64,000 bases of DNA from the NCBI GenBank assembly GCA_017452785.1, contig JAFTLT010000017.1, positions 1 to 64,000 of the forward strand. The letters are read 5' to 3'. The notes under the pieces are model-generated. The model did not search any database and was not told the DNA's origin. It saw only the letters and a list, made by a program, of their open reading frames with translations. This document shows positions 35,216-60,910 of this stretch, piece after piece. Position numbers and translations under genes: made by a program. This DNA comes from Clostridia bacterium (lineage in GTDB: Bacteria; Bacillota; Clostridia; Oscillospirales; Acutalibacteraceae). The first letter of the stretch is position 1, and every line of letters starts with the position of its first letter.

Positions 35216-36052
35216 ATGGTAGGAATTATTGATGTTGGCGGTGGCTGGAGAGGAATTTACACCGGCGGAGTTTATGATTATCTTCTTGACAATTCAATTG
35301 ATATTGACTATTGTCTGGGTGTTTCTGCGGGCAGTGCAAACCTTATTACTTATGTCGCCGGGCAAAGAGGCAGGCTTAAAAGATTTTATGAAGAGTATTC
35401 TTTTGAAAAGCAATATCTGAGTATAGGCAATTATTTCAATAAAGGTATGCTTATAGACCTTGATTATATATATTCGGATATTACAAACAGCACGGGAAAA
35501 GATCCTCTTGATTTTGACGCCGTAATGAAATCACAAAAGCAGTTTGTTGCCGTTGCAACAGAGGCTAAGACGGGAAAAGCGAAATATTTTTCAAAAAGTG
35601 ATATGAGCTTCGACGAGTTCACCTTGCTGAAAGCGAGCTGTGCAATACCTATTGTATGCCGCAAGCCGATTGCTTTTAAAGGTGAAAAATACTTCGACGG
35701 CGGGCTGTCTGACCCTATTCCTTATAAAAAAGCCTTTGCAGACGGTTGTGACAGGCTGATTATATGTCTGACTTTGCCTGTTGACTATAAAAAATCCGCT
35801 ATGCCGGAAGCGTTTGTCAGATTTTTGCTTAAAAAATATCCTGAAATAAGTGAGCATGTTATTTCTTCACACATAACATATAACAAACAGATAGAAGAAA
35901 TTATTGAGCTGGAAAAGCAAGGCAATGTCCTTATTCTTTATCCTGAAGACTGTTTTGGAATTAAAACTATATCAAGGGAAAAAGAGGGACTGAGAAAGCT
36001 TTATGAGCTGGGCTACAAGGACGCTAAAAAAATCGAGGCTTTTCTGAAATAA
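35216..36052 (+). CDS. Patatin-like phospholipase
   Basis: A 278-aa lipid acyl hydrolase of the bacterial patatin family. The oxyanion segment VGGGWRGIYTGG opens the protein, the nucleophile Ser37 sits in GVSAGS, and the catalytic Asp is in YFDGGLSDPIPY. No signal peptide, so it acts on the cytoplasmic face of the membrane. Length is usual. The ribosome site is AGGTGG. No effector partner genes are adjacent. Confidence 0.92.
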   Translation: MVGIIDVGGGWRGIYTGGVYDYLLDNSIDIDYCLGVSAGSANLITYVAGQRGRLKRFYEEYSFEKQYLSIGNYFNKGMLIDLDYIYSDITNSTGKDPLDFDAVMKSQKQFVAVATEAKTGKAKYFSKSDMSFDEFTLLKASCAIPIVCRKPIAFKGEKYFDGGLSDPIPYKKAFADGCDRLIICLTLPVDYKKSAMPEAFVRFLLKKYPEISEHVISSHITYNKQIEEIIELEKQGNVLILYPEDCFGIKTISREKEGLRKLYELGYKDAKKIEAFLK

Positions 36053-36193
36053 AACATCTTGCCTAAGCGGCAGAGTACGACGGGACTCATTAACAATTTG
36101 TTTATATTTAACAATAAACGGGGGCCGAAAATGGGTTTCAAAAGTCGAGTTTTAGCTATACTGCACAAAATAAAATTTGTTTGTTAAAAACTA

Positions 36194-36223
36194 TTGACAA
36201 ATAGCACAAGGATAATATATAAT
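36194..36223 (+). promoter_or_regulatory. Promoter of the large noncoding RNA
   Basis: TTGACA (36194-36199), 18-nt spacer, TATAAT (36218-36223); predicted start near 36226-36231. Confidence 0.75.
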
Positions 36224-36227
36224 AAGG

Positions 36228-36811
36228 GTGCAACAAAGAGAAAGGGGTGTTACCAATGTACTGTTTAGTATAAACCGTACGATTTGATAAGTATCTGTAA
36301 AAATTAAATTTAATAAGCGGTTTGTGTAAAGAAATAAACCGAAATATCCTTTGACGGAAATGGCCGTCCGGGAATAACTGAAAGAGATAAAATCAAGTCG
36401 TATCAGACGAAAATTTATATATATATAGCAAAGGCTGAGAGTATAATGAGTACAAAAAGCCGGAGCAAAAATTCATAAGTGTAAAGAAACTTATGAAGTC
36501 TTATCAGAGCTTTCAGGTAGGTAAGAGGTCGGTCGGATGTAGTGACTGACGAAAGCTATCATAAGACAAAAAAGGAAAACGTCAACTGTGTCTGAAAAGA
36601 GTAAGGCTTAAACATTCACGGAGAAATTCAGTAGCAGAGGATGCTGAAGTGAATTAAAAAGAAAAACTTAAAGCAGTGAAAAAGAACTGCAATGCTTCAT
36701 AAAAAGATTAAATATAGAAGAAAACAAAAAAGACACAGAATAAGCAAACGAAAAATTCCTTCAGAATAAAAAGTGTATACCACCTGTATTGTCATGCAGG
36801 TGGTATTTTTT
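36228..36811 (+). ncRNA. Large structured noncoding RNA, about 580 nt, ROOL-like candidate
   Basis: A transcription unit with consensus promoter and perfect terminator but no ORF. Paired segments seen by eye: 36258-36267/36271-36280; 36318-36323/36336-36341; 36353-36357/36364-36368; a perfect 9-bp stem 36472-36480/36489-36497; a triple-nested arm 36498-36504/36561-36567, 36508-36514/36551-36557, 36528-36534/36544-36550; 36614-36619/36649-36654 with 36627-36631/36644-36648 inside; 36673-36677/36686-36690; and a perfect long-range 8-bp helix 36586-36593/36731-36738 enclosing the last two. Linkers are A rich. Size, lone position and A-rich multi-helix style fit the large ornate RNAs (ROOL, GOLLD, OLE). 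ROOL is nearest in length (about 580 nt). The class name is my inference; no OLE-associated protein gene is nearby. Confidence 0.75.
36777..36811 (+). terminator. Terminator of the large noncoding RNA
   Basis: ATACCACCTG (36777-36786) pairs perfectly with CAGGTGGTAT (36797-36806), then TTTTT. Confidence 0.92.
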
Positions 36812-36818
36812 GCGAAGT

Positions 36819-37346
36819 TTATGAAACAAGAATCATAAAATTTCTTGCTGTTTCTTCGGGGGAAAACTCCATTTTTTTATCGCTGCACCATTTTATCACG
36901 GCACAAAAGCTGCTTATGAGATGGTTAAGCAAAAAGTCATCAGGCACATCTTTATTAAAATCCTTAAGGTGCAGGGTGAAAAGCTCACGGAGATAGCCTC
37001 TTATATAGCCCATAAATAAATCTGCACTTTCACAGGATAAAAGTCCTGTGATGTCTTTTTTGTGGTCTCTCAGATGCCAGAGAATGTGAGCTAACTTTTC
37101 TTCCAAAGAGTGAGTCTGACCCGGATAATTGCACATATCTCCCTTAAAGATGTGGTCAAAAATATCACTGCATATTGCATAGAGCAGTGCATCCTTGGTT
37201 TCAAAGTGAGAATAAAAGGTGCTTCTGCCAACATCAGCTTTGTCAATAATATCCTGCACGGTTATGTTTTCATAGCGTCTGTGCTGCAGCAGCTCACGAA
37301 AGGCGCTGAATATAGCTTCTCTTGTTTTTCTTTGTCTTCTGTCCAT
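36819..37346 (-). CDS. TetR-family transcriptional regulator
   Basis: A 175-aa repressor. The N-terminal helix-turn-helix is standard: KTREAIFSAFRELL, ITVQDIIDKADVGRSTFYSHFETKDALL. The C-terminal ligand domain (about 60-175) includes HLRDHKKDITGLL and DFLLNHLISSFCAVIKWC. It is divergent from the cation diffusion facilitator gene, and a 35-bp palindrome lies between them, so it probably represses that exporter and perhaps itself. The inducer is unknown. Confidence 0.9.
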   Translation of the reverse strand: MDRRQRKTREAIFSAFRELLQHRRYENITVQDIIDKADVGRSTFYSHFETKDALLYAICSDIFDHIFKGDMCNYPGQTHSLEEKLAHILWHLRDHKKDITGLLSCESADLFMGYIRGYLRELFTLHLKDFNKDVPDDFLLNHLISSFCAVIKWCSDKKMEFSPEETARNFMILVS

Positions 37347-60886: not shown

Positions 60887-60910
60887 GATAGGTAAAGGAG
60901 TGATATTCCA

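Follow-up and report, generated by a model that had tools for sequence, protein, structure and literature searches.

Introduction

Several ways in which an RNA can occupy, or be occupied by, a large molecular machine are familiar from bacteria. 6S RNA titrates RNA polymerase; the STAB-SD elements of Firmicutes keep a ribosome close to the 5' terminus of a transcript, which is thereby protected from 5' exonuclease; and the lambda bar minigenes consist of a very short open reading frame (ORF) behind a strong Shine-Dalgarno (SD) sequence.

Among the large RNAs, ROOL is described as adopting a P1-P19 fold that assembles into an octameric RNA-only cage and as occurring in phages or prophages, frequently close to tRNA arrays; OLE has been proposed to bind RpsU, and GOLLD is reported to bind ribosomes (PMC12286853). 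A ROOL member, the lncRNA of L. salivarius, is about 520 nt long, megaplasmid-borne and very abundant (PMC5643018). With regard to translation starts, extended, start-codon-proximal SD pairing has been established in S. aureus, the sites described there serving protein genes and the extension amounting to two base pairs (PMC13009471). Finally, the yfr6/Downstream-peptide RNA of cyanobacteria was once called non-coding and contains a short ORF, its conserved structure being the 5' UTR of that ORF (PMC2864571).

The DNA considered here, referred to as the window, is a stretch of 64,000 nt (positions 1–64,000, forward strand, of contig JAFTLT010000017.1) from the Clostridia bacterium assembly GCA_017452785.1. 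It contains a candidate RNA gene of about 580 nt, for which the reading that we favour, with somewhat more confidence than doubt, is that of a structured RNA that docks on ribosomes via its 5' end and belongs to a family not yet listed among the catalogued RNAs.

Transcription unit and overall fold

The original prediction for this locus was of a large, structured RNA gene, about 580 nt long, bracketed by a consensus promoter and a perfect terminator and placed between a patatin gene and tetR. These elements were all recovered, as were the helices that it had named (a perfect 9-bp hairpin, a nested arm and an 8-bp long-range helix, located below). The promoter is of the sigma-70 type (TTGACA-18-TATAAT, 36194–36223, + strand) with 12 of 12 consensus matches, and the same promoter type was read by eye 5' of the homologues. 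The intrinsic terminator (36777–36811, +) consists of a 13-bp stem and a T run, with two compensatory changes in the stem with respect to the orthologue L005. With the start set from the promoter and the end from the terminator, the RNA would span 36230–36811 (+), and the two predicted signals would make it a stand-alone transcript, the transcription of which is probably strong. Pfam assigns the flanking genes to the patatin-like, TetR and cation-efflux families, the TetR gene being convergent.

The calculated fold of 36226–36815 has an energy of −148 kcal/mol versus −103 ± 5 kcal/mol for shuffled sequences (z −8.36; equalled by 0 of 100 shuffles), and the reverse strand of the unit gives a weaker value (z −5.83). 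No ORF of at least 60 aa was found to overlap the unit, and ATG ORFs on the two strands of the RNA reach at most 32 aa. The description of the unit as ORF-free holds for frames of at least 60 aa and fails for a five-codon frame (36256–36273) that lies behind a very strong SD and is found in 18 of 18 copies; this ORF and the adjoining block complementary to 16S rRNA, both of which had been overlooked, are the most conserved parts of the RNA. A coding RNA was considered and rejected, in that the longest ATG ORFs of the copies (16–79 codons) lie in differing places and on differing strands, and none was seen to be conserved.

Comparison with catalogued RNA families

Rfam 15 (4227 models, GOLLD, OLE, HEARO and raiA being assumed to be among them) gave no match at gathering score in the whole 64-kb window and, for positions 36050–36850 at E ≤ 10, only three chance matches, none of them to ROOL. 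GOLLD, OLE, HEARO and raiA were rejected on this basis. Sixteen homologue loci searched against Rfam at E ≤ 1 yielded nothing relevant, and neither these four models nor ROOL matched at the loci of other genera that were scanned. The ROOL model (RF03087) was also run on 99 genomes, under stricter filters, and was found in none of the 35 genomes of the window's genus. That the model works is indicated by a 338.9-bit match in the single positive genome of the 99 (G094, of the same order as the window genome), which serves as a positive control; the matching segment, G094:C1:557024–557579 (L101), is a ROOL RNA in another family of the order.

The original prediction had leaned towards ROOL or a divergent relative of it, and had suggested running the ROOL, GOLLD, OLE, HEARO and raiA models around the unit. 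None of them matches there, and the identification with ROOL had to be given up in view also of the absence of RF03087 from all 35 genus genomes. The similar length, the A-rich linkers and the occurrence in gut Firmicutes do recall ROOL. However, with no ROOL match even at E ≤ 10, with 0 of 35 genus genomes positive against 338.9 bits in G094, and with ordinary chromosomal genes as the flanks, no tRNA found in the 64-kb window and no phage or plasmid match obtained, it is extremely improbable that the window RNA is ROOL or a divergent ROOL. The phage and plasmid collections searched contain no DNA similar to the RNA, and a scan of viral contigs for the 5' motif gave 0 matches. A phage- or plasmid-borne element was rejected because of these missing matches.

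A further option of the original prediction, a new class, fits what was found, namely a family within one genus that has a conserved structure and no Rfam entry. By sequence comparison, the window RNA is a member of an RNA family absent from Rfam 15. No description of such a family was found among the literature matches listed, in which few subscription papers were covered.

Distribution and genomic settings in the genus

A DNA search with the window RNA gave matches in 16 of 99 genomes including its own; 15 are in the genus, and the one outside is a short, weak match. The orthologue L005 is 86% identical to the window RNA, and 16 further copies were collected in the genus. Across the genus an alignment is possible only for the first 75 nt or so, the body evolving fast and being for the most part unalignable. 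A model of the 5' end (R1), built from 17 copies, all of the window's genus, identified 18 copies in 15 of the 35 genus genomes (8 of the 15 good-quality ones). The RNA is not essential to the genus, since 20 of the 35 genomes (7 of the 15 good-quality ones) gave no copy. A 19th match of R1, the third in the window's own genome (contig C48), falls within an ORF of 114 codons and was taken for a chance match.

The motif was also found in 21 named contigs, 15 of which are metagenome-assembled genomes (MAGs) of Clostridia or Oscillospiraceae, 12 of these with ruminant cecum or rectum named in the title. The other six were set aside as unrelated non-Clostridia, in which the motif reads as a KGVLPMH/KEVLPMH-type peptide, inside frames of 545–700 codons in four cases and of 27 and 51 codons in two. 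With this family, MAGs of ruminant-gut bacteria yield a structured RNA that Rfam 15 does not list.

The neighbourhoods of the 17 copies differ. Seven copies share one, with genes that we take to be FAD-dehydrogenase-like, PHP-like or phosphoesterase-like, four share another, the window RNA and L005 a third, and L002 and L021 a fourth; the RNA has accordingly been inherited vertically in parts and relocated in others. The window's own genome contains the family twice, the other copy being L002 (G000:C4:74119), which lies about 54 kb from 6S RNA and differs in its diverged ORF (MHCVA) and in the way P1 is paired; L021 (G008) is of the same type.

These data bear on the reading of the unit as the 5' leader or attenuator of a neighbouring gene. 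A short ORF combined with alternative helices does resemble attenuation, but the next gene, TetR, is convergent, the neighbours change between copies, and a script located a terminator in 16 of the 17 full copies, with that of L002 read by eye, all of which makes a leader highly improbable.

Helices and their conservation

Two helices are associated with the 5' end. P0 (36258–36280, +) is a hairpin over the short ORF, the 3' arm of which competes with the outer pairs of P1; P1 joins 36277–36288 (core 36280–36288) to 36392–36403 (core 36392–36400), both on the + strand. P0 is invariant in 15 sequences and therefore gives no covariation signal, so that the constraint on the ORF and that on P0 are inseparable. 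The minimum-energy fold of the full-length RNA lacks P0 and favours an extended P1 together with another small hairpin. In the 15 sequences, 98.5% of the P1 cells are paired, with one pair changing from G-C to A-U in four sequences. Taken jointly, P0 and P1 have 99.2% of their cells paired versus 20–37% when the 3' partners are slid, and both the covariation score and the number of paired cells are above those of 500 of 500 shuffles; the pairs with two-sided change (one) and the further pair types (seven) do not exceed the shuffles. In L015–L018, the 3' strand of P1 was located by complementarity, a placement that favours P1 in this test. In 14 of 15 sequences, an alignment-free comparison placed the best complement of the P1 5' strand at this block or its counterpart, with single significance at p ≤ 0.05 in eight of the 15.

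The long-range helix P2 pairs 36586–36593 with 36731–36738 (+) through 8 bp in the window RNA, and a seeded search, run without a shuffle control, recovered at least 7 bp of it in 15 of 17 copies. Its letters are CUGUGUCU/AGACACAG in the window and GUAUCYC/GRGAUAC elsewhere, with other letters in L006 and in the L002 type; a C-G to U-A exchange is present among the 11 tabulated sequences. The two L002-type copies, in which P1 is paired differently, were left out of the P1 test and of the P2 table; the latter also leaves out the window RNA, L005, L006 and L007, and L013, cut by a contig end, was left out of all structure work.

Within the P1 domain, a hairpin with a GUAAAGAA octaloop (36319–36340, +) shows two swapped pairs and the loss of two outer pairs between the window RNA and L005, and a second hairpin (36347–36373, +) belongs to the predicted fold. 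They are followed by the perfect 9-bp hairpin, again with a GUAAAGAA octaloop (36472–36497, +), and by the nested arm (36498–36567, +; z −4.05), which ends in a tip hairpin (36528–36550) with a GGAUGUAGU loop; the 7-bp stem of the latter is kept, with compensatory changes, in four of the four copies examined (the window RNA, L005, L006 and L007). Inside the P2 domain, the predicted fold contains a hairpin with AGAGGA (36614–36654, +) and another at 36673–36690 (+).

Both occurrences of the 11-mer GTGTAAAGAAA in the window lie inside the RNA, with the octaloop GUAAAGAA at 36324–36334 and 36479–36489, and the octaloop recurs in L005, L009, L011, L053, L133 and L138. The octaloop was dropped as a family hallmark, and no weight is placed on it, because the terminators of another RNA type carry the same one.

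Of the 149 pairs predicted for the window RNA, comparison with L005 left 125 unchanged, 6 kept via one change and 5 via two, 10 broken and 3 gapped, the pairs kept by swaps including those of the 36319–36340 hairpin and of the terminator. RNAalifold analysis of the clade L015–L018 (four sequences) returned 114 pairs, 11 of them with two-sided compensatory change. As judged from these sequences, the structure is kept partly by compensatory change, in P1, in P2 and in several hairpins.

The presence of GGA in hairpin loops, as in GGAUGUAGU and AGAGGA, would be expected of a CsrB-type sponge binding CsrA. Such a function is very unlikely, given that CsrA (PF02599) was found in 0 of the 35 genus genomes, the control being positive in 3 of 14 named genomes, and that GGA is not enriched over the 17 RNAs (122 observed, 133 expected), only L016 being clearly above expectation (z 2.3). 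A sponge for CsrA was rejected on these two grounds; another protein might bind.

The five-codon ORF and the block complementary to 16S rRNA

The block complementary to the 3' end of 16S rRNA (36237–36256, +) is an extended SD and forms the one strong site of its kind in the window RNA. It reaches the five-codon ORF ATG TAC TGT TTA GTA TAA (36256–36273, +; MYCLV*). All 18 copies have an ATG, four sense codons and a TAA, the encoded peptide being MYCLV in five, MYCLM in 10, MHCVA in two and MYRLV in one. In the 17 full copies the SD energy lies between −12.7 and −15.3 kcal/mol, pairing being still strong in the core variants L012 and L016. The SD of the window RNA is stronger than that of 34 of the 35 long ORFs of the window, even though for each of these the most favourable ATG within its first 80 codons was used.

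All duplexes with the tail of 16S rRNA were calculated with UUGGAUCACCUCCUUUCU, which we assume to be its 3' end in Firmicutes. Against this assumed tail, the block 36237–36256 yields −18.8 to −20.4 kcal/mol, covers most of the tail and is the strongest such site in each of the 17 RNAs. None of 150 permuted tails binds as well as the −18.8 kcal/mol duplex; when the 61-nt 5' end was scanned, 13 of 150 permuted tails gave one site under the cut-off, none as strong. The A or G that follows CC in 18 of 18 copies would be explained by the ability of both to pair with a U of the 16S tail. A search for the canonical 16S 3' end was negative in all of 18 look-ups (0/6 and 0/12) covering 16 genomes, even in the one-contig genome among them, so that rRNA genes seem to be missing from the genome collection.

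The duplex energy alone is not unique, in that many unrelated 22-mers of the window also reach −19. Another start in the window, at 60896, which is presumably that of ribosomal protein L18, carries a similar 16S-complementary block. For these reasons, the block of the window RNA may be just a strong start site. Its unpaired probability (0.53) is slightly above the mean of the RNA (0.45), a difference of the same sign being found in 14 of 17 RNAs.

That the pentapeptide MYCLV/MYCLM is the product of a dual-function or peptide-encoding RNA is improbable. An MYC start is found in 15 of the 18 genus copies and in several RNAs of other genera, but two copies encode MHCVA and one MYRLV, differing short peptides of 3–26 residues follow similar start sites elsewhere, and the residues overlap P0. 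Moreover, none of the neighbours (patatin-like, TetR, cation-efflux) is known to process peptides.

Short-ORF RNAs in other genera and their relation to 6S RNA

Outside the genus, R1 gave 21 matches among 250 genomes searched, all of them weak (best 7e-5 per genome). Rfam scans of the 21 loci identified five as stand-alone short-ORF RNAs near 6S RNA, with R1 E values from 7e-5 to 4e-3 per genome, the match in L062 being to a 3' copy of the block; two more are starts of DUF1292-type genes preceding 6S (one checked with Pfam). The 5' block that the window RNA shares with the 6S-linked short-ORF RNAs comprises an extended SD, an AUG and, often, UAC UGU. A wider model (R2), built with these RNAs included, was positive in 67 of 398 genomes at E ≤ 1e-3. 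Among 14 further loci scanned, eight have 6S nearby, one of these on a match below gathering score, and adjacency to 6S was found in all, with L136, in 14 genomes of eight genera. At E ≤ 1e-4, an order-wide search with R2 was positive in 13 of 394 genomes, and seven of the 11 loci read outside the window's own genome start ORFs of 3–5 codons.

In 21 short-ORF loci hand-picked from the R2 and R1 matches, the first ORF has 9–26 codons, a terminator lies 155–1026 nt downstream in 20, and the strict promoter pattern is present in nine. No body shared between the window RNA and the outside short-ORF RNAs was seen by eye. In the window's genome, 6S is located at G000:C4:19882–20067 in a neighbourhood of protein ORFs, and neither family copy adjoins it.

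Weak outside matches at the start or in the leader of an ordinary gene (DUF1292 preceding 6S, a secreted protein, a presumed Hsp20) were excluded from the count of RNAs. In L132 (G000:C13) and L135 (G009:C51), a similar start-site block and a tiny ORF lie in the 5' leader of a protein gene, which we take to encode a secreted protein in the former and, behind a CIRCE-like repeat, an Hsp20-like protein in the latter.

Several outside RNAs contain repeated elements, either GGUGAGUCC without AUG or GGUGGUUCCGAUGUACAAAUAA with a 3-codon ORF. With the assumed tail, 12 16S-tail sites were counted in L136 (shuffle mean 0.8), nine in L137 (0.6), five in L054 (0.1), four in L131 (0.5), three each in L113 and L115, and two each in L111, L112 and L122. 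Overall, nine of the 11 outside short-ORF RNAs scanned have 2–12 sites versus shuffle means of their own of 0.1–0.8, and L121 and L116 show no clear excess over shuffles. The site count was compared with permuted tails for six RNAs and was reached by 0 of 80 (L136) or 0 of 150 (the others); the best single duplex energy in the same six was matched by 0–2 permuted tails. L136 (G442:C12:45500–49000) appears by eye to be an RNA of about 1.1 kb, near 6S, with several ORFs of the form AUG UAC AAA/AAG UAA, and L137 (G523:C43) has nine elements and no 6S in the stretch examined.

A second RNA type was encountered in several families of the order (L133 in G033:C58, L134 in G017:C13, L138, L142, L144–L147 and L152). 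At the 5' end it has a GGUGAUACC-type block and a 3-codon ORF (MYR, MNR, MFR or MYK), followed by a non-coding middle, an SD with a conserved short ORF near MLDIKSEQK, and then a terminator; no Rfam family matched in the loci scanned.

Taken together with the window RNA, the outside RNAs allow a broader and only tentative proposal, which we hold to be possible rather than likely. The window RNA would be the structured branch of a widespread uncatalogued RNA class of the order that binds the free 3' end of 16S rRNA by means of 1–12 extended-SD elements, with or without ORFs of 2–26 codons, and captures 30S subunits by docking on or titrating them; in eight other genera (one on the basis of the sub-threshold 6S match), such RNAs would stand beside 6S as side-by-side regulators of transcription and translation. 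If it is true that the 16S-tail arrays of these apparent relatives capture 30S subunits, they would be RNAs controlling ribosomes as 6S controls RNA polymerase.

Proposed mechanism

In the reading that we favour for the window RNA, a 30S subunit would land on the 5' block, using it as an extended SD, and initiate; the ribosome would read five codons and stop inside P0, beside P1; and the RNA would thereby be retained on ribosomes or pass through them repeatedly. The remainder of the molecule would be a non-coding body that evolves fast, with one domain closed by P1 and another by P2. Both ribosome docking and expression of the window RNA are inferred. With one strong site and no array, the window RNA may instead be anchored by the ribosome, or have its structured body protected by it. 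That it titrates or regulates 30S subunits is speculative and is suggested by analogy with the multi-copy RNAs of other genera.

In a different assignment of roles, the folded body of an ornate-type RNA does the work, as a scaffold or RNA-only complex, and the 5' SD and ORF park a ribosome against 5' exonuclease. The SD, no more than about 20 nt away from the inferred 5' end, would be appropriately placed, and the strong fold, the long-range helices, the A-rich linkers and the promoter and terminator of its own are features of such RNAs. However, a stabiliser should not need an AUG, a fixed five-codon ORF and a CCRA part kept in 18 of 18 copies, a working body would not be expected to be mostly too variable to align across the genus, and the outside RNAs with a similar 5' block carry repeated blocks far from the 5' end. 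We regard this assignment as rather unlikely, though worth keeping in mind. Docking via the 5' end would offer a concrete, testable handle on large RNAs of unknown function.

Comparison with known systems

The window RNA and ROOL (RF03087) are alike in being large, structured, stand-alone RNAs of gut or rumen Firmicutes. They differ in that the window RNA gives no sequence or model match to ROOL, is chromosomal, shows no sign of linkage to phage or tRNA, and carries an SD with a five-codon ORF. OLE and GOLLD are, similarly, large RNAs of the ornate type, from which the window RNA is set apart by the lack of an Rfam or phage match. The lncRNA of L. salivarius is also long and stand-alone; the window RNA is, by contrast, chromosomal.

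With the extended SD start sites of Firmicutes, the window RNA has in common a pairing with the 16S tail that extends past the usual SD and lies close to the start codon. Unlike those sites, it continues from a five-codon ORF into a structured tail of about 530 nt. In yfr6 the conserved structure precedes the short ORF, whereas the window RNA has its long-range helices 3' of it; and with respect to the lambda bar minigenes, in which a very short ORF also lies behind a strong SD, the difference is the conserved structured RNA that follows the ORF.
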